From: Peptostreptococcaceae bacterium
GTDB taxonomy: Bacteria > Bacillota > Clostridia > Peptostreptococcales > Acidaminobacteraceae
Assembly (NCBI GenBank): GCA_027064135.1
Contig: JAMOQG010000081.1
Span: 1 to 44,917, forward strand
DNA: 44,917 nt
Direction of reading: 5' to 3'
Shown here piece by piece: positions 140 through 7,701 of the stretch. The position numbers and the translations under genes are program-made. Numbering within the stretch: the first letter of the stretch is position 1; every line of letters begins with the position of its first letter. The notes under the pieces were generated by a model, which made no database searches, was not told where the DNA came from, and saw only the letters and a program-made list of their open reading frames with translations.

Positions 140-748
140 TTATTTAAATCTAGAATATAATTCCTTGTAAATATCATCTAAGTTAATGTTTTTCTGTGCT
201 AATAGTACCATTAAATGATAAATTAAATCCGCTGTTTCATAAATGAAATCTTCATCATCGCTATTTTTAGAAGCAATAACTACTTCGATAGCTTCTTCTC
301 CTACCTTTTGAGTAATTCTATCTAATCCTTCCTTAAATAATGATGTTGTATATGAATCTTTTGGCATATTTCTTTTTCTATCAATAATTATTTTTTCAAG
401 ATTAACTAAAATTTTTTTATAATCCATATTTTCTTTATCTTCTACAACATTATTAAAAAAACAAGATATTTTTCCAGTATGACATGTTGGTCCTTCTGGT
501 TTAACTAAAATTAGAAGTGTATCATTATCACAATCATATTTAAATGATTTCAAATTCAAATAATTTTCACTTGTTTCTCCTTTTGTCCAAAGCTTATTTC
601 TTGATCTAGAATAAAAAGTAACTTTCTTTGTTTTCAAAGTAATTTCTATTGATTCTTCATTCATATATCCAAGCATCAATACTTCAAGCGTATCAGCATC
701 TTGAATAATTGCTGGTATTAATCCTTTTTCATTATAAGTTAAATTCAT
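140..748 (-). CDS. hisIE: Bifunctional phosphoribosyl-AMP cyclohydrolase / phosphoribosyl-ATP pyrophosphatase
   Basis: This cytoplasmic enzyme catalyses steps 2 and 3 of histidine synthesis: it removes pyrophosphate from PR-ATP, then opens the purine ring of PR-AMP. The N-terminal cyclohydrolase half (about 1-105) shows YDCDND at 71-76 and GPTCHTG at 86-92, which hold the metal-binding Asp and Cys residues. The C-terminal MazG-like half (about 112-202) has the GEEAIE helix near 150-155 expected of the pyrophosphatase. The 202-residue length is normal for the fused form. Its ATG overlaps the hisF stop (TAATG), so translation is probably coupled. It is the last gene of the operon and is followed by a terminator. 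Confidence 0.96.
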   Translation of the reverse strand: MNLTYNEKGLIPAIIQDADTLEVLMLGYMNEESIEITLKTKKVTFYSRSRNKLWTKGETSENYLNLKSFKYDCDNDTLLILVKPEGPTCHTGKISCFFNNVVEDKENMDYKKILVNLEKIIIDRKRNMPKDSYTTSLFKEGLDRITQKVGEEAIEVVIASKNSDDEDFIYETADLIYHLMVLLAQKNINLDDIYKELYSRFK

Positions 749-1503
749 TATAACCTCACTTTAATATCATTTAATTTTAAATATTCTTTTAATTTTTTTA
801 TTTCAATTTCTTTATTATGAAAAACACTTGCAGCTAATGCTGCATCAACATCAGTATTCTTAAATACATTTAAAAAATGTTCCATATTTCCTGCTCCACC
901 TGATGCTATTACTGGAATCGATAAATTCTCACAAAGAGTCTTAATTATATTCTCACTAAAACCATTTTTTTCACCATCTGAATTTATTGAATTTAGTACA
1001 ATTTCTCCAGCTCCAAGTTTTTCTCCAATTATAGCCCAAGTAAGTACATCCATATTTTCATTTTTTCTGCCACCTTTTGAATAAACCATCCATTTTCCGT
1101 TTTCAAATTTAGCATCTATGCTTAATACAACACATTGTTTTCCAAATTTTTTACTTGCTATCATTATAAGTTCCGGAGTTCTAATTGCTGAAGAATTGAT
1201 TGAAACTTTATCAGCACCTGATTGAAGTGCTTTATCAAAATCTTCAATCGAGTTAATCCCTCCACCTATTGTAAATGGAATATTAATCTCTTTAGCAACT
1301 TCTTTTGCTAAATCAAAAACAGTTTTTCTATTTTCATTTGATGCTGAAATATCATAAAATACCAATTCATCTGCTAAACTATTAGCATAATATTTTGCCA
1401 TAACAACAGGATCTTCAATTATATTTAAATTTTCAAATTGTTTTCCTTTTACAACTTTTCCATCTTTTACATCTAAACACGGAACTATTCTTTTAGTTAT
1501 CAT
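748..1503 (-). CDS. hisF: Imidazole glycerol phosphate synthase, cyclase subunit
   Basis: HisF is a TIM barrel that takes ammonia from HisH and converts PRFAR to IGP and AICAR. The catalytic Asp residues are visible: Asp11 in CLDVKDG and Asp130 in SIDAK. The phosphate-binding loops GGGI and ASGGAG are present. I chose the ATG at 1503 (MITKR) over a longer frame because family members begin this way and because that ATG overlaps the hisA stop as ATGA. The resulting 251 residues match the family. HisF and HisH form the synthase complex; hisA separates the two genes, as in most bacterial his operons. Confidence 0.96.
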   Translation of the reverse strand: MITKRIVPCLDVKDGKVVKGKQFENLNIIEDPVVMAKYYANSLADELVFYDISASNENRKTVFDLAKEVAKEINIPFTIGGGINSIEDFDKALQSGADKVSINSSAIRTPELIMIASKKFGKQCVVLSIDAKFENGKWMVYSKGGRKNENMDVLTWAIIGEKLGAGEIVLNSINSDGEKNGFSENIIKTLCENLSIPVIASGGAGNMEHFLNVFKNTDVDAALAASVFHNKEIEIKKLKEYLKLNDIKVRL

Positions 1504-2204
1504 TTTACCCACTCCAAAAGATTCAATTTATTTTCATAAATTGCTTTACCCACTATTACATTTTCAATACCTATTTCTTTTAATTTCAAAATATCTTCTT
1601 TACTTCCTACTCCACCAGAAGCAATTAAATTAATATCAAACTTTCCCATTATTTTTTTATAAAGTAATACATTTGACCCCTTCAATGTTCCATCTTTTGA
1701 AACATCAGTAACAATAAAATTTTTAAGTCCCATATCTGTAAACTCAGATAATTTTTCAAAAATATTCATTTGAGAATTTTCTTCCCATCCTTTAATTAAA
1801 ACAGATTCATTCATTACATCAAGACCCACAATAATATTTTCTTTATAATCTTTTACAATTCTATTAAATATTTCTCTATTTTTAATGGCCATTGTTCCTA
1901 TTATTATTTTATCTATACCTAAATCAATTATTTCTTTTGCTTTTTCATAATCTCTAATTCCACCACCATACTCGATTTTAAAATTAGTACTTTCTTTTAT
2001 TTCCTTAATAACATTTAAATTTATAAAATCTCCAGTAAATGCTGCATCAAGATCTACAATATGAATATTTGTAAATCCATATTCTTCAAATTTCTTTGCT
2101 GCATCTAAAGGGTTTTCATAATAAATAGTTTCACTATCTGCTTTTCCTTTATAAAGTCTAACGCATTTCTGATTTTTTATGTCTATTGCAGGAATAATAT
2201 TCAT
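1500..2204 (-). CDS. hisA: ProFAR isomerase (HisA)
   Basis: HisA catalyses the Amadori rearrangement of ProFAR to PRFAR. It is a half-barrel-repeat TIM protein related to HisF. Asp8 in PAIDIK and Asp129 in VGLDV are the expected acid/base pair. GGGIR near 80-85 and ASGGVG near 195-200 bind the two phosphates. The length of 234 residues is slightly short but within family range. Its TGA overlaps the hisF ATG. A Trp-biosynthetic dual role (PriA) is an actinobacterial feature and is not suggested here. Confidence 0.96.
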   Translation of the reverse strand: MNIIPAIDIKNQKCVRLYKGKADSETIYYENPLDAAKKFEEYGFTNIHIVDLDAAFTGDFINLNVIKEIKESTNFKIEYGGGIRDYEKAKEIIDLGIDKIIIGTMAIKNREIFNRIVKDYKENIIVGLDVMNESVLIKGWEENSQMNIFEKLSEFTDMGLKNFIVTDVSKDGTLKGSNVLLYKKIMGKFDINLIASGGVGSKEDILKLKEIGIENVIVGKAIYENKLNLLEWVK

Positions 2205-2215
2205 TTCATTTCCTC

Positions 2216-2821
2216 CTATATAAATTCTTTAATTATATTTTCTAATATTTTCAAACCAACTTTACTACTTTTTTCAGGATGAAATTGAATACCAATTAAA
2301 TTATCCTTTAAAATAATTCCAGGAACTTTTACTTCATAATCAGAATACAATATTAAGTTTTCGTTATTATACTCAGTTAAATAATATGAATGCACATAAT
2401 AAGCATAGTTTTCTTTATTAAATCCTTTTGTTAAAAAAGATTTCTTATTAACAATAAGTTCATTCCATCCCATATGAGGAGATTTTAATTTAATATCAAA
2501 TTCCTTAAAAACACCTTTAAAATATCCTAAACCTTCACAATATCCATCTTCATAACTTGCTTCAAACATCACTTGCATTCCCAAGCAAATACCCACAATA
2601 AGTTTATTTGCATTTTTTCTTTTATTTAAAGCATCAATTAAATTATTATTTTTTAAATTTTCCATTGCGGCTTTAAAAGCTCCAACTCCAGGAAGAAAAA
2701 CAATATCTGCGTTTATTATTTCATCAGTGTCTGAACTTATTTTTGATTCATAACCAATTTTCTTAATTGCATTTTTCAAATTATATACATTACCAAGCCC
2801 GTAATCTAATATCAATATCAT
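2216..2821 (-). CDS. hisH: Imidazole glycerol phosphate synthase, glutaminase subunit
   Basis: HisH is a class I glutamine amidotransferase that hydrolyses glutamine and passes ammonia through the HisF barrel. The triad is complete: Cys79 in GICLGMQ, His181 and Glu183 in QFHPEKS. The oxyanion region LPGVGAF (about 43-49) is intact. The 201-residue length is typical. The start is backed by AGGAGG a few bases upstream, which overlaps the end of hisB. Confidence 0.96.
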   Translation of the reverse strand: MILILDYGLGNVYNLKNAIKKIGYESKISSDTDEIINADIVFLPGVGAFKAAMENLKNNNLIDALNKRKNANKLIVGICLGMQVMFEASYEDGYCEGLGYFKGVFKEFDIKLKSPHMGWNELIVNKKSFLTKGFNKENYAYYVHSYYLTEYNNENLILYSDYEVKVPGIILKDNLIGIQFHPEKSSKVGLKILENIIKEFI

Positions 2822-2822
2822 T

Positions 2823-3404
2823 CTATCCTCCTATTGTCCCTTTTGTTGAAAGTAATTCATCATTCACATTTAAAGCTATCTTTAATGCAAGACCTAACGA
2901 TTTGAAAATATTTTCAATAATGTGGTGTGCATTTTCTCCTGAAAGTTTCTTAATATGTAGATTAATCATTGCATTATAAGTCATTTTCATAAAAAACTCT
3001 TTAAAGTTTTCTACTTCAATATTACCAACATAATTATTTTCAATATCTACATCATAACTAAAATAACTTCTCCCACTTAAATCAACTGCTAAAAGAATTA
3101 ATGAATCATCCATGGGAATAATATTTGAAGCAAAACGTTCTATTTTCGTATTTTCATCAATTCTTTGTCTAATTGATTTCCCAAGTACTATCCCTATATC
3201 TTCAATTAAATGATGAGAATCTACATATAAATCACCTTTCGCTTTAATAGTAAAATCAATATCTGCATACCTCGCAAAAGTATTTAACATATGATCGAGA
3301 AAACCAAGTCCTGTATCAATTGAAGCATTATAACTTTTATCATAATCAATTGTTAATTGAATATCTGTTTCATTAGTTTTCCTATTTATTATAACTTCAC
3401 CCAT
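2823..3404 (-). CDS. hisB: Imidazoleglycerol-phosphate dehydratase
   Basis: HisB is a manganese enzyme that dehydrates IGP to imidazole acetol phosphate. It is the monofunctional form (193 residues), with no HisN phosphatase fusion. Metal-binding motifs are seen as FLDHML, DSHHLIED and AHHIIEN. I place the start at the ATG giving MGEVIINRK, which matches how homologues begin. An ATG four codons upstream sits directly against AAGG with no spacing and is less likely. The gene overlaps the 3' end of hisC by 8 bases. Confidence 0.95.
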   Translation of the reverse strand: MGEVIINRKTNETDIQLTIDYDKSYNASIDTGLGFLDHMLNTFARYADIDFTIKAKGDLYVDSHHLIEDIGIVLGKSIRQRIDENTKIERFASNIIPMDDSLILLAVDLSGRSYFSYDVDIENNYVGNIEVENFKEFFMKMTYNAMINLHIKKLSGENAHHIIENIFKSLGLALKIALNVNDELLSTKGTIGG

Positions 3405-4380
3405 TTCCAACCACATCCTTTAAAATAGAAAGCAATTTATCATTTTCCTCTCTATTTCCTATATTAAACCTTATATATGAAACAAGATATTCATCGTTAA
3501 ACGTTCTAACAAAAATTTTATTTTCTTTTAAAGCTTTTAAAACTCCATTATTATTAATAGTTTTTATTAAAATAAAATTTGATTCGCTATTTAAATATTC
3601 AATATTTATCTTCTTTAATTCTTTAATTATTCTTTGCTTTTCATTTAAAATATTTTCAACATATTTTTTAGTATCAATTAATTTTAAAGTTTCAGTTGCA
3701 ATAAATTGACTTATTCCACTAATGTTATATGGCATTCTATATTCATTTAAAAAATCAATATTTTTTTCACTTGTTAATCCATATCCAACTCTTAATGACG
3801 CTAATCCATATGCTTTTGAAAGAGTCCTCATAATTATTAAATTTTCATACTTATTTAATAATTTTATATTTGTTTTACCTGAAAATTCTATATACGCTTC
3901 ATCTACAATAACCATATTATTTGAAGTATTTAATACTTCTTCGATAAATTCTTCTTTTAAAAGCTCTCCTGTTGGATTATTAGGAGAACAAAGAAATATT
4001 ATTTTTGGATTATACTCCTTAATCTTTTGAATAAATACATCTTTATCAACTTTTAAATTTTTCTTTGGTTTAACTCCAATAAAATTTCTGCCAAGATAAT
4101 TTGATATTTTTTCATATTCTGAAAAAGTTGGAATATGTGAAAGAATATTTTCATTTTCTTTTGAATATGCAAGTAAAATAAGTTGTATTAATTCATCAGA
4201 TCCATTTGTTGGAATAATATTTTCAACTTTTCTATTTGTTATTCTTGATAATTCACTTTTTAATTTTTTATAATCTAAATCCGGATACCGGTTATAATCA
4301 AAAGAAAATAATAATTCATTGATTAAATTTCTATCAACAGTATTAAATGGATTTTCATTTGCATTTAGGTATATATTCAT
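3397..4380 (-). CDS. hisC: Histidinol-phosphate aminotransferase
   Basis: HisC is a PLP-dependent class I/II aminotransferase that converts imidazole acetol phosphate to histidinol phosphate using glutamate. The Schiff-base lysine is Lys189 in LSKAYGL. SPNNPTG (about 132-138) and the Arg of SLRVGY are also diagnostic. It has 327 residues and begins right at LNANENPF, so it lacks the short N-terminal extension of many homologues. Its ATG overlaps the hisD stop as ATGA, which supports this start. Confidence 0.95.
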   Translation of the reverse strand: MNIYLNANENPFNTVDRNLINELLFSFDYNRYPDLDYKKLKSELSRITNRKVENIIPTNGSDELIQLILLAYSKENENILSHIPTFSEYEKISNYLGRNFIGVKPKKNLKVDKDVFIQKIKEYNPKIIFLCSPNNPTGELLKEEFIEEVLNTSNNMVIVDEAYIEFSGKTNIKLLNKYENLIIMRTLSKAYGLASLRVGYGLTSEKNIDFLNEYRMPYNISGISQFIATETLKLIDTKKYVENILNEKQRIIKELKKINIEYLNSESNFILIKTINNNGVLKALKENKIFVRTFNDEYLVSYIRFNIGNREENDKLLSILKDVVGNG

Positions 4381-5648
4381 CTCATTCTCTCCTTTATACT
4401 ATTTGCATGTTCAAAAAGATTTTCAGTTTCCGCAAATTTTGAAATATACTTCCAATTTTCAGTAAAATCATCTTTTGAGTACTTAATATAACTACTTCTT
4501 TTTAAAAAATCATAAACACCCAATGGTGATGAAAATTTTGCTGTACCACTAGTAGGTAATGTATGATTTGGTCCTGCAAAATAATCGCCTACTGGTTCAG
4601 GAGAATATTCTCCAATAAATATACTTCCTGCATTTGTAATTTTATTAAGTTTCTCCATAGGATTCTTTATAAGTAATTCAAGATGTTCTGGAGCAATGTA
4701 ATTTGAAATTTTAAACATTTCATCAACATCTTCAACTTTAAAAATTAAAAGATTATTATTTATACAAATTTTTAATATTTCTTTTCTTTTAGATTCATCA
4801 ATATACTTTTCTACAAACTTCAATGTTTCAATTATTATTTTTTCAGAATTTGTAATAAGATATGGTTTTGCATTTTCATCATGTTCAGCTTGACTTAATA
4901 AATCGCGAGCAATGTATTTAGGATTTGACTCTTCATCAGCTAAAATTAAAATTTCTGATGGTCCTGCTATCATATCAATATCTACTATTCCGAATACTTG
5001 TCTTTTAGCTTCAGCAACATAAATATTTCCCGGGCCAACTATTTTATTAACAGCTTTAATTGTTTTGGTTCCATAAGCTACTGCTGCAACTGCCTGTGCA
5101 CCACCAATTTTATAAATTTCATTTATATTAAGTAAATCTGCAGCTACAAGAATATTTGAATTAACTTTTCCAAATTTATCAGGTGGTGTAATAATTACTA
5201 TTTCTTTTACTCCAGCAATTTTCGCAGGAATTACATTCATTAAAACAGTTGATGGGTAAATTGCTTTCCCTCCAGGAATATAGACTGCAACCCTTTCAAT
5301 CGGAGTTGTAATTTGTCCTATTACTGAATTATTCTTAGTATTATATTGAAAATCATTAACCGTTTGATTTTTATGAAATTTTTCAATATTATAAATAGCT
5401 TTTTTTAATATTTCAATGAATTCTTCACTTACATCTTTATAACTGTCCTTAATTTCATTAATAGTAACTCTAAAATTACTAATATCTACATTATCAAATT
5501 TTTTAGTATAGTTTATTAATGCTTTATCACCATTTACTTTAATATCTTTAATTACTTCAGATACAACTTCCTTTATCTCAGAAATATTATTATCTTCTAA
5601 AGAAATATATTTTTTGAAATCTTCTTTTTTCACATCTATAATTTTCAT
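4377..5648 (-). CDS. hisD: Histidinol dehydrogenase
   Basis: HisD is a zinc and NAD dependent enzyme that performs the last two oxidations, histidinol to histidinal to histidine. Family signatures are clear: VGPGNIYVAEAKR, IDMIAGPSEILI, LLSQAEHDENA (Glu/His zinc and catalytic region), NYIAPEHLEL, and AGPNHTLPTSG near the C terminus. The 423-residue length is standard. It follows hisG by 12 bases and overlaps hisC by 4. Confidence 0.97.
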   Translation of the reverse strand: MKIIDVKKEDFKKYISLEDNNISEIKEVVSEVIKDIKVNGDKALINYTKKFDNVDISNFRVTINEIKDSYKDVSEEFIEILKKAIYNIEKFHKNQTVNDFQYNTKNNSVIGQITTPIERVAVYIPGGKAIYPSTVLMNVIPAKIAGVKEIVIITPPDKFGKVNSNILVAADLLNINEIYKIGGAQAVAAVAYGTKTIKAVNKIVGPGNIYVAEAKRQVFGIVDIDMIAGPSEILILADEESNPKYIARDLLSQAEHDENAKPYLITNSEKIIIETLKFVEKYIDESKRKEILKICINNNLLIFKVEDVDEMFKISNYIAPEHLELLIKNPMEKLNKITNAGSIFIGEYSPEPVGDYFAGPNHTLPTSGTAKFSSPLGVYDFLKRSSYIKYSKDDFTENWKYISKFAETENLFEHANSIKERMR

Positions 5649-5660
5649 TTTTTCTCCTTA

Positions 5661-6266
5661 TCAAGAAATTTTATTAATAAATTCTGTAATAATATCTGTT
5701 TTAGTTTTATATGAAACTTTATTAGCAATTACTTTAGAATAAATTTTCTTAAAATGCTCATTTACTTCAAGCCCATTTTCTTTTAAAGTATTCCCTGTTT
5801 CAACTATATCCAAAATACAATCACTGATATTAATTAAAGGTCCAAGCTCTACCGAGCCATTTAATTTAATCACTTCTCCATTTAACTTCTTAAATTTAAG
5901 ATACTCATTTGCCTGCTTAGGATATTTTGTAGCAATTTTTAAATAATCCATTTCTTTAATTTTAGAATTTTTCATTGATGCTATACATAAATCACAAACA
6001 CCTATTTCAAGATTTAAAAGTTCATAAAAAAGATCATCAAATTCATCGATTATATCTTTACCAACAATTCCTAAATCTGCAAATGCATTGTTCACATAAA
6101 GCGGTACATCTATCGCCTTAACTATTATTAAATTAATTGAATTATCCAAATCTTTAATTACAAGCTTTCTTGTTTTTTCATCTTTAAATCTATAACCTGA
6201 TGATTTCAATAAACTTAAGAAATCTTCATATACTCTGCCTTTAGAAACCGCTATTTTTAATGTCAT
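5661..6266 (-). CDS. hisG: ATP phosphoribosyltransferase catalytic subunit, short form
   Basis: HisG commits PRPP and ATP to histidine synthesis. At 201 residues it is the short form, lacking the C-terminal allosteric domain; such enzymes work as an octamer with HisZ, encoded just upstream. The N-terminal SKGRVYEDFL, the ADLGIVGKD segment and the PRPP loop region DIVETGNTLKENGL are all present. Its ATG overlaps the hisZ stop (TAATG), in keeping with stoichiometric production of the two subunits. Confidence 0.95.
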   Translation of the reverse strand: MTLKIAVSKGRVYEDFLSLLKSSGYRFKDEKTRKLVIKDLDNSINLIIVKAIDVPLYVNNAFADLGIVGKDIIDEFDDLFYELLNLEIGVCDLCIASMKNSKIKEMDYLKIATKYPKQANEYLKFKKLNGEVIKLNGSVELGPLINISDCILDIVETGNTLKENGLEVNEHFKKIYSKVIANKVSYKTKTDIITEFINKIS

Positions 6267-7435
6267 TAGTGAATCGACTCCAATTTTGTTGAATTTATTC
6301 CCTCAATAAATTCGTTATAGCTTTTTTTATAAACTTCATTAGTGTTTTTACTTATAATATTTACCAAATCATTTTGAATACTTAAAATAAATGCACTATT
6401 TATATTTTTTATAACATCATACTCTAATTCGTTTTCCATTAAATTTACATTTAAACCATTTTCTCTTAAAGCTGTAGCTAAATAAAGAGCTTTTTCATTG
6501 TTAGAACTGTTTGTAATCACTGTATAGTCATTTTTTGCTAAATTATAATTTGTCATTTTTATCACTCCTATTAAATTTAATATATTGAATGAAAAGCCTA
6601 CACCCTGCTTATCATTATTGTTATATCTTCCACCTTGCAATATTTTTTTACCATAATCCCTTATATATGAATTAAATATCATACCGTCATAATATGAGTA
6701 TTTATTTGTTAAACTCAAATCAATTTTTAACTTCTTAATATCAATTTTGTAAATAAGAAGTATTTTTTTTAACTTAGTTAGATAATCAATTATTGGTTTA
6801 AGTTCACTAATATTTAATTCAGTTGCATTTTTTAAAATTGACTCATAATCTCCAAATAGTTTTGAAAGTACTATAAGTGCATTTTTATTTTCATTAGATA
6901 TATCTAATTCATTTAAAATTTTTTCAATTTTTTGAATATTTTTGTTATGAATCGCATTATTTAGTCTGATTTTCTCGCTTCTACTTATTCCATCACTATT
7001 TAGAAGTTTTTCAATAAAATGAGTATGCCCGATTTCTATTGTAAAATCATCTAAATTCAAATTCTTTAAAAGTTCGTTTGCTATAATAATTATTTCAGCA
7101 TCTGCTATAACTGATTCTTCACAAAAATTCTCAACTCCTCCTTTAAGATTCTCAATTGACTTATCCCATGAAAATGTATTAGTTAAATAATATATTTTTT
7201 CATTTAATATTTTTGAATCAAATAAACTAATTGTTGGATCTTCATGTAAAATATTTACTTCCCCTTCAAAATCAATAATTTTCACAAGTGATGATTTTGT
7301 GTTTTTATAATAATCAATAGAAGCTTCCATACTTGAAACAGATTTTGGAAATATTTTTTTAAATCCAAATTGTTTAGAAATTTTAGAAAATTTTTCATCG
7401 ATATAGTTAATTTCTTCTAAATTTAAATATTGCAT
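6266..7435 (-). CDS. hisZ: ATP phosphoribosyltransferase regulatory subunit
   Basis: HisZ is a catalytically inactive paralogue of histidyl-tRNA synthetase that activates short HisG and gives it histidine feedback sensitivity. Class II synthetase-like blocks can be traced (FEGEVNILHEDPT near the N terminus, GGRYNN in the C-terminal third), without an anticodon-binding domain. The start is the ATG at 7435 (MQYLNLEE), preceded by AGGAG at 5-base spacing. An upstream in-frame TTG would lie before that site. The N-terminal region is divergent, as is usual in this family. It is the first structural gene after the attenuator. Confidence 0.9.
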   Translation of the reverse strand: MQYLNLEEINYIDEKFSKISKQFGFKKIFPKSVSSMEASIDYYKNTKSSLVKIIDFEGEVNILHEDPTISLFDSKILNEKIYYLTNTFSWDKSIENLKGGVENFCEESVIADAEIIIIANELLKNLNLDDFTIEIGHTHFIEKLLNSDGISRSEKIRLNNAIHNKNIQKIEKILNELDISNENKNALIVLSKLFGDYESILKNATELNISELKPIIDYLTKLKKILLIYKIDIKKLKIDLSLTNKYSYYDGMIFNSYIRDYGKKILQGGRYNNNDKQGVGFSFNILNLIGVIKMTNYNLAKNDYTVITNSSNNEKALYLATALRENGLNVNLMENELEYDVIKNINSAFILSIQNDLVNIISKNTNEVYKKSYNEFIEGINSTKLESIH

Positions 7436-7448
7436 ATTCTCTCCTCTC

Positions 7449-7490
7449 AAAAAACAAAATAGCCATCTAGGTAAACACCTAGATGGCTAT
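7449..7490 (-). terminator. Attenuator terminator before hisZ
   Basis: Perfect 14-bp stem (ATAGCCATCTAGGT, GTTT loop, ACCTAGATGGCTAT) followed on the minus strand by TTTGTTTTTT. It lies between the His-rich leader peptide and the hisZ ribosome site, so read-through is needed for any his gene to be expressed. This is the decision hairpin of an attenuation system. Confidence 0.93.
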
Positions 7491-7522
7491 AATTATAAGA
7501 ATAATTATTATATCATCATCAG

Positions 7523-7557
7523 ATGCGAACCCTGGTCAATACAAACAGAGCTCGCAT
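7523..7557 (-). promoter_or_regulatory. 12-bp leader hairpin in the his attenuator
   Basis: On the minus strand AUGCGAGCUCUG (7557-7546) pairs with CAGGGUUCGCAU (7534-7523) across an 11-base loop, including G-U wobbles. It lies between the leader-peptide stop and the terminator, where pause or preemptor hairpins sit in known his/trp attenuators. Part of its 3' arm (GACCAG) can instead pair with CUGGUU just after the leader stop (7580-7575), so alternative folds exist. Confidence 0.75.
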
Positions 7558-7581
7558 TTGAAATAAAATCAAACAACCAGC

Positions 7582-7635
7582 TCACTTCTTATGATGATGA
7601 TGTAATTGTAAAAAACTTAAAATTAATTTAAACAT
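7582..7635 (-). CDS. hisL: His operon leader peptide with four tandem His codons
   Basis: A 17-codon frame reads MFKLILSFLQLHHHHKK and stops with TGA. All four His codons are CAT, at 7602-7591. The ATG at 7635 is preceded by AAAGGA at 9-base spacing and lies about 30 bases after the predicted transcription start. Translation through the His codons would sense charged tRNA-His; stalling there would change pairing of the downstream leader and decide whether the terminator at 7449-7490 forms. The peptide itself probably has no other role. The gene is assigned from architecture and position, not homology. Confidence 0.88.
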   Translation of the reverse strand: MFKLILSFLQLHHHHKK

Positions 7636-7672
7636 AATAACCATTCCTTTTATTTTTAATTTATTGTAACAT

Positions 7673-7701
7673 ATACTATCAGTATATAATTAACATGTCA
7701 A
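7673..7701 (-). promoter_or_regulatory. Sigma-A promoter of the his operon
   Basis: On the minus strand a perfect -35 TTGACA (7701-7696), a 17-base spacer and -10 TAGTAT (7678-7673). Predicted start is near 7666, giving a leader of roughly 215 bases ending in the attenuator. No separate operator is evident. Confidence 0.85.

Follow-up and report, generated by a model that had tools for sequence, protein, structure and literature searches.

A probable ribosome-mediated his attenuator in Clostridia and its apparent kinship with leaders for other amino acids

The his operon of a Peptostreptococcaceae bacterium (GTDB family Acidaminobacteraceae; assembly GCA_027064135.1) is preceded by what is very probably a ribosome-mediated transcription attenuator: a short frame that holds several His codons in a row, followed by hairpins that can form in alternative combinations and by an intrinsic terminator. 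In itself this leader is a further case of a published kind and not a new one. What is added here is that it appears to be part of a family with exchangeable sensor codons, one that includes RF04312, the "trpB motif", a current riboswitch candidate. (The window referred to throughout is the whole stretch of DNA that was analysed, contig JAMOQG010000081.1, 44,917 nucleotides; coordinates are those of the window.)

The leader and its operon

The attenuator region spans positions 7449-7701 and lies on the minus strand throughout, as do the genes that it precedes: promoter, ribosome site, leader frame, alternative hairpins and terminator lead into hisZGDCBHAF-IE. The promoter, read from the sequence, has a -35 box TTGACA (7696-7701) and a -10 box TAGTAT (7673-7678) separated by 17 bases, and would start transcription at about 7666. 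A ribosome-binding site, AAAGGA (7645-7650), serves a leader peptide frame (7582-7635) that begins with the ATG at 7635, runs for 17 codons, MFKLILSFLQLHHHHKK, and ends with TGA at 7584-7582; equivalents are found in 22 of the 27 other hisG-bearing genomes of the same family. (There is a second in-frame ATG upstream, at 7644; the 17-codon start is preferred because the upstream ATG touches the ribosome site.)

The four consecutive CAT codons (element A, 7591-7602) are the putative sensor. Element B (7569-7583) begins within the stop codon and can pair with element C (7546-7560), as seen in the sequence and in one stalled fold; C itself was placed by the alignments A2 and A3, described below. 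Element D (7512-7534), recognised by sequence, fold and covariation in relatives, has alternative partners, C or the 5' arm of the terminator, and includes D' (GATGATGAT, 7520-7512), which is complementary to the His codons and pairs with them in the untranslated fold (the A:D' duplex of the window is worth -13.4 kcal/mol). Elements E and F make up the terminator (7459-7490), a perfect 14-bp stem followed by a T run (7458-7449) and attested by sequence, alignment and covariation. It sits directly before a his gene, hisZ, which is the position required of a his attenuator. The 211-base leader folds at -65.8 kcal/mol (z -8.0), a value equalled by none of 200 shuffles. The first-pass annotation, which did not give the strand, had called the promoter with its spacer, the ribosome site, the 17-codon frame with its four CAT codons and the 14-bp terminator ahead of hisZ, and all are present; its 12-bp leader hairpin reappears as 12 consecutive pairs, with two more beyond a bulge.

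The operon's first gene, hisZ (6266-7435), has its own ribosome site and ATG (at 7435); it is identified by PF13393 (120.6 bits, above cut-off), and scores 164 bits against TIGR00443, below that model's cut-off of 271.65. It adjoins hisG (5661-6266; TIGR00070, over cut-off), and hisD, hisC, hisB, hisH, hisA, hisF and hisIE follow in that order (140-5648), each over the cut-off of its NCBIfam model.

How would such an element work? With ample charged His-tRNA the ribosome would reach the TGA and cover B, C would pair with D, and the E:F terminator would form before hisZ. With His-tRNA scarce, the ribosome would stall on the four CAT codons and B would pair with C; D would then be free for the 5' arm of the terminator (D:E), and transcription would go on. 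If the leader is not translated at all, the His codons would pair with D', and the terminator would be favoured as well. From these arrangements we infer the stalling, the response to histidine and a short terminated transcript. The enterobacterial his leader (RF00514) embodies the same principle, with His codons, alternating hairpins and a terminator.

Distribution of His leaders and of other regulators

Histidine attenuation by leader peptide, as the first-pass annotation proposed, is upheld by conservation, by covariation, by the lack of a T-box at the site and by the lack of a PF01371 protein in the genome; the accompanying remark that it is uncommon for the group is not. His leader peptides were proposed for Firmicutes by Naville and Gautheret in 2010 (PMC2965389), and his attenuators were reported there again by Ashniev et al. 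in 2022 (PMC9413887). The two papers name as carriers bacilli, the B. cereus group, Peptostreptococcaceae, Lutispora and Erysipelotrichales, with the B. cereus case acquired independently. The published leaders and that of the window have in common 3-5 consecutive His codons and attenuator, antiterminator and terminator hairpins before hisZ or other his genes. The present case differs in bringing in another family and further Clostridia, and in that its RNA core is common to leaders for other amino acids, a point that the first-pass annotation had not raised.

The comparison set was 80 genomes chosen around the window's genome, which is one of them; hisG is present in 52. For the other 51 of these the DNA upstream was examined, and 47 of the 51 have a hisZ match. 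A short frame with a His run stands before hisZ or hisG in 26 of the 52, the window's own counted: in 23 of the 28 hisG genomes of the same family, where it is accordingly the usual arrangement, versus 3 of 24 elsewhere in the order. (Technical notes: His frames at loci L051, in genome G055, and L074, in G049, were left uncounted because the core is missing; the leader of G037, with the interrupted run HSHH, was counted; G011, G056 and G069, with upstream sequence short or missing, were scored leaderless.) The five leaderless genomes of the family are G006, G033, G012, G011 and G030. In G011 the contig ends, and the model R1 (see below) finds a His leader on a separate contig, ahead of what appears to be hisZ (L196); in G030 hisG is fragmentary. 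The sole genome of the same genus, G001, has no hisG match, so that it offers no close homologue for comparison. In one genus of the same order (g53) the leader and the start of hisZ are almost the same as in C. difficile CD160, which points to the order that includes Clostridioides.

Could the operon be under the control of a His-specific T-box or the HisR repressor, with the leader a decayed remnant? The window's genome does contain 22 T-box matches (17 over cut-off), and PF01371 proteins are common in the order. None of the T-box matches is on the window's contig, however; an Rfam search of the window yielded nothing at gathering score, the T-box model RF00230 included, and inspection by eye shows no T-box core TGGNACC in the stretch, as the first-pass annotation had also noted. 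The window's genome (G000, 97.87% complete) has no PF01371 match, so it gives no indication of a HisR regulon, and the promoter, frame, hairpins and terminator of the leader are intact. Control by T-box or HisR is largely contradicted by these sequences, and we regard it as very improbable. The genome seems to use T-boxes and a leader-peptide attenuator alike.

The wider distribution of PF01371 (the TrpR family, which holds HisR) points in the same direction: proteins over its cut-off occur in 2 of the 26 genomes with a leader and in 19 of the 26 without (Fisher p 2.3e-6, relatedness ignored, and with PF01371 including other proteins besides HisR). If L051 and L074 are counted, 28 of the 52 genomes have a leader, and the comparison becomes 4 of 28 versus 17 of 24. 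This agrees with PMC9413887, which states that attenuators are found where neither HisR nor a T-box is present.

The Rfam model of the enterobacterial his leader, RF00514, matched none of 15 genomes, the window's included, while the controls, E. coli and Corynebacterium glutamicum, were positive. At relaxed thresholds the window gave 18 Rfam matches, the best of them, at 38.3 bits, to the trpB motif. The remaining ones, among them Qrr and IBV D-RNA, were judged to be chance matches to hairpins.

The RNA core and its two states

After their His codons the leaders have bases in common, whether coding or not, in B, C, D and the terminator. The consensus reads AGRGUUUGUA for B, CAUAGAUGCAAGCUCU for C and RGGCUUGCAUCUAUGAUG for D, and the window has this B-F core after its sensor codons, as do the members of the wider leader family. 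The alignment with relatives that the first-pass annotation had suggested as a check bears it out: across 27 leaders the His codons are conserved and the stems of both states covary.

This alignment, A2, takes in 27 of 32 leaders (20 from the same family, 3 from the same order, 4 from named records; L055, L085 and L088 were excluded as near-duplicates, and L109 and L051 because the core is not visible). In the terminated state, C:D+E:F, 85.1% of its cells are paired, with 79 both-side changes versus 24.6 (sd 4.7) in shuffles; in the antiterminated state, B:C+D:E, 85.5% are paired, with 28 both-side changes versus 10.2 (sd 3.3). The shuffles ignore relatedness, and an excess over them is not to be read as a probability. 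Slid controls pair in 28 to 48% of cells, although each test structure was taken from one member (L058 for A2, L238 for A3), which favours it over its slid versions. A second alignment, A3, comprises 50 leaders of all codon types, hand-chosen for spread: 14 His leaders, 18 of 30 Trp loci, 12 of 20 aromatic loci found with R1 and 6 of 9 leaders from sub-threshold class-wide matches to RF04312, all described below. It has 177 both-side changes in C:D+E:F versus 49.4 (sd 8.9) in shuffles and 110 in B:C+D:E versus 32.0 (sd 6.5). The window keeps 7/10 of the B:C pairs of A2, 12/15 of C:D, 7/9 of D:E and 11/11 of E:F; for A3 the figures are 7/9, 12/15, 8/12 and 13/13. Over the relatives, then, the mutually exclusive terminator and antiterminator helices both covary. 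In 18 of the 27 A2 leaders Gln and then Leu, Phe or Tyr immediately precede the His block (QLHHHH, QFHHHH, QYHHH).

The match between the codons and D' deserves separate attention, since the CAT run might be a by-product of pairing with D' and no sensor at all, the terminator being constitutive or under the control of a protein. In the His leaders 82% of cells are complementary between codon strand and D', and duplexes of a codon strand with its own D' are stronger than those with a permuted partner: the mean over 57 leaders is -13.3 kcal/mol for the cognate duplex versus -8.8 for other partners, and the cognate total beats all 20000 permutations within codon type. (The 57 are what remained of 68 entered leaders, with Trp represented by 21 of 30 loci, after dropping 7 without a recognisable D motif, L283, in which D was misplaced, and 3 duplicates; a further 4 His leaders had not been among the 68. 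D' was positioned by a motif rule, and L071 is apparently misplaced also.) In the His leaders alone, covariation of the His codon:D' pairing is no higher than in shuffles. Against the by-product reading stand the retention of start codon, ribosome site and frame; the makeup of the His blocks of the 27 leaders (92 CAT, 14 CAC and 1 other codon); the placement of Phe codons in transporter leaders, mostly upstream of the stretch that is paired with D'; and the agreement of codon type with the regulated gene, taken up below. We consider a mere by-product improbable. The parts of the element, their conservation, the covariation of C:D, E:F, B:C and D:E and the matching of codon strand to D' are established by these comparisons.

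Folding of the leaders and of the window's own copy

Equilibrium folding of 50 leaders, with the 3' arm of the terminator left off, shows the predicted exchange of partners: covering the first 12 bases of B lowers the mean probability of D:E from 0.58 to 0.19 and raises that of C:D from 0.16 to 0.50. D:E falls in 42 of the 50. The window is among the 8 exceptions. In its own copy the antiterminator is not favoured at equilibrium: D:E in the stalled state is 0.01-0.35, with C:D dominant. Covering B does not lower it, and when the RNA is free from +9 after the stop onward it is as high as 0.43. One stalled fold of the window does have B:C and D:E as its best structure, and the probability of B:C before D has been made is 0.69. 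Since the window lacks an equilibrium switch, its switch would have to be kinetic, and this behaviour of its own copy has slightly lowered our confidence in the attenuator, which we nevertheless hold to be very probable.

The same core with other sensor codons

R1 is a model built from His leaders only, and it matches 94 of 297 genomes of the order. The 49 R1 loci that were inspected (49 of 51 candidate sources; a hand-picked set of best and secondary matches, not all matches of the 94 genomes) comprise 28 His leaders, 20 Tyr, Tyr/Phe or Phe leaders and a single locus, L226, with neither. (The window belongs to the training alignments of both R1 and R2, so its own match to either is by construction.) Genes behind the His leaders include hisS (L239, L235, L236), hisD (L204), a hisZ-type protein (L179), a solute-binding protein (L177) and a PF03553 carrier (L223). 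Genes identified behind Tyr leaders are SNF symporters (L205, L220) and an NhaC-type antiporter (L206). A Tyr/Phe leader (L212) is followed by a Branch_AA_trans carrier, and Phe/Tyr leaders by a permease (L222) and by a binding protein that resembles TrpX but scores below cut-off (L229).

R2, trained on the leaders of all types in A3, has matches in 31 of the 391 genomes searched in the class; in the Enterococcus order it has them in 117 of 148. Of 22 R2 loci that were read, 15 are His or aromatic leaders, 3 are tentative and 4 are false (L310, L311, L312, L314). Forty secondary R2 loci of the Enterococcus order, L345-L384, hand-picked among the matches listed, carry Tyr/Phe or Trp leaders on reading; among them are Tyr/Phe leader peptides of the QLNNYYFSYFR type before aroE and TrpX-like genes. 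Applied by rule, a frame led by a ribosome site is present in 37 of the 40, and 36 of the 40 have at least 2 W/Y/F/H, versus 123 of 4000 shuffles. The genes that follow include aroE (L347, L351, L366), a TrpX-like gene below cut-off (L361) and trpB (L362).

The trpB motif

The trpB motif, RF04312, was described by Narunsky et al. in 2024 (PMC11109978), who count more than 900 representatives in Firmicutes and Fusobacteria, mostly preceding an amino-acid ABC transporter, and rate it a strong riboswitch candidate; they also admit a protein factor or a classic attenuator as possible. It resembles the window's element in the layout of its P1 (C:D) and terminator, with the antiterminator in the right shoulder of P1. 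The RF04312 model begins at C, so that the leader frame and element B fall outside it, and the codons upstream are Trp where the window has His.

The window scores 38.3 bits against RF04312 (E 5e-4), short of the gathering score of 59, and a genome-wide search of its genome under strict filters gave no match at E <= 0.001. Across 291 genomes of the window's class there are 12 matches, all of them sub-threshold; 9 are codon-run leaders, His or Phe/Tyr, and L246, L250 and L251 are not. The his leader of C. difficile (L137), which has the same core as the window, scores 50.6 bits. Among 21 named genomes RF04312 has matches in 3, one of which exceeds the gathering score; for the order that includes Enterococcus caccae the figures are 70 of 118, with 27 over that score.

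The best-scoring 30 loci of that order, one per genome and several of them near-identical, were examined (L252 and L256-L284; 27 at or above gathering score and 3 just below). Every one has a Trp-codon frame led by a ribosome site, with its stop 12 to 29 bases before the motif. All 30 have at least 1 Trp in the last ten codons, versus 88 of 6000 shuffles, and 25 have at least 2, versus 8 of 6000. The genes behind them include trpX (L257; NF041285, 466.5 bits) and trpB (L262; TIGR00263). R1, blind to Trp-type sequence, detects 26 of the 30 in the expected place at E <= 0.01 and misses 4; it also detects 34 of the 40 secondary loci and misses 6, although there it is not blind, those loci having been chosen by R2. 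RF04312 most likely represents the terminated half and Trp-codon branch of the element found in the window.

A metabolite riboswitch is the other way to understand such an RNA: the hairpins would bind an amino acid or a relative of one directly, and the short frame would be incidental. The published standing of the trpB motif as a strong candidate (PMC11109978) and the conservation of the core at the nucleotide level speak for it. We nevertheless judge it improbable: the type of codon fits the downstream gene where this was tested (His with hisS, hisD and hisZ; Trp with trpX and trpB; Tyr with SNF symporters; Tyr/Phe with aroE), frames led by ribosome sites precede all 30 of the RF04312 loci examined, and the conserved sequence is largely engaged in one or the other pairing.

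A probable single attenuator family

The T-box (RF00230) senses the supply of aminoacyl-tRNA with one scaffold and exchangeable specifier codons for many amino acids. Read as a family, the leaders described here are its ribosome-read counterpart: T-boxes bind tRNA directly, whereas in the window's leader a ribosome would read the codons. The His, Tyr, Phe and Trp leaders probably constitute one family, by descent or by transfer; convergence of their cores is less likely. We think it likely that the Bacillota possess one widespread attenuator family, in which the B-F scaffold is kept while sensor codons for His, Tyr, Phe and Trp (perhaps also Leu, Asp and Asn) are exchanged and D' co-evolves with them, and in which the trpB motif is the Trp branch and needs no ligand.

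Among the literature matches listed, mostly main texts outside subscription journals, none unites these leaders as one family; the main text of a review of C. difficile riboswitches (PMC11477304) contains neither histidine, trpB nor attenuat-, and "trpB motif" together with riboswitch was found in one paper only in the literature searched. If the family is real, a riboswitch candidate with more than 900 representatives (PMC11109978) would be reassigned as a sensor of tRNA supply, the independent origin of the Firmicutes leaders would be put in question, and a natural series would be at hand in which to study how attenuators shift from one amino acid to another.

Further codons and carriers

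The three tentative R2 loci suggest further codons. L307 is a possible Leu version, with RVLLLLAELL before an SNF-like gene (by eye). L309, a weak match, is a possible Asn version, with LNNGYNI before aspS. L313, also weak and with its frame read by eye, is a possible Asp version, with TDDDR before a non-discriminating aspartyl-tRNA synthetase.

Genes of the PF03553 Na+/H+ antiporter family follow both a Tyr leader (L206) and a His leader (L223), which hints that these carriers may move tyrosine or histidine; the Branch_AA_trans carrier behind L212 is likewise a candidate transporter for the amino acid of its leader. At several Tyr and Phe loci (L205, L212, L228, L231 and others) a second terminator-like hairpin, with a related stem, can be seen by eye after the first.
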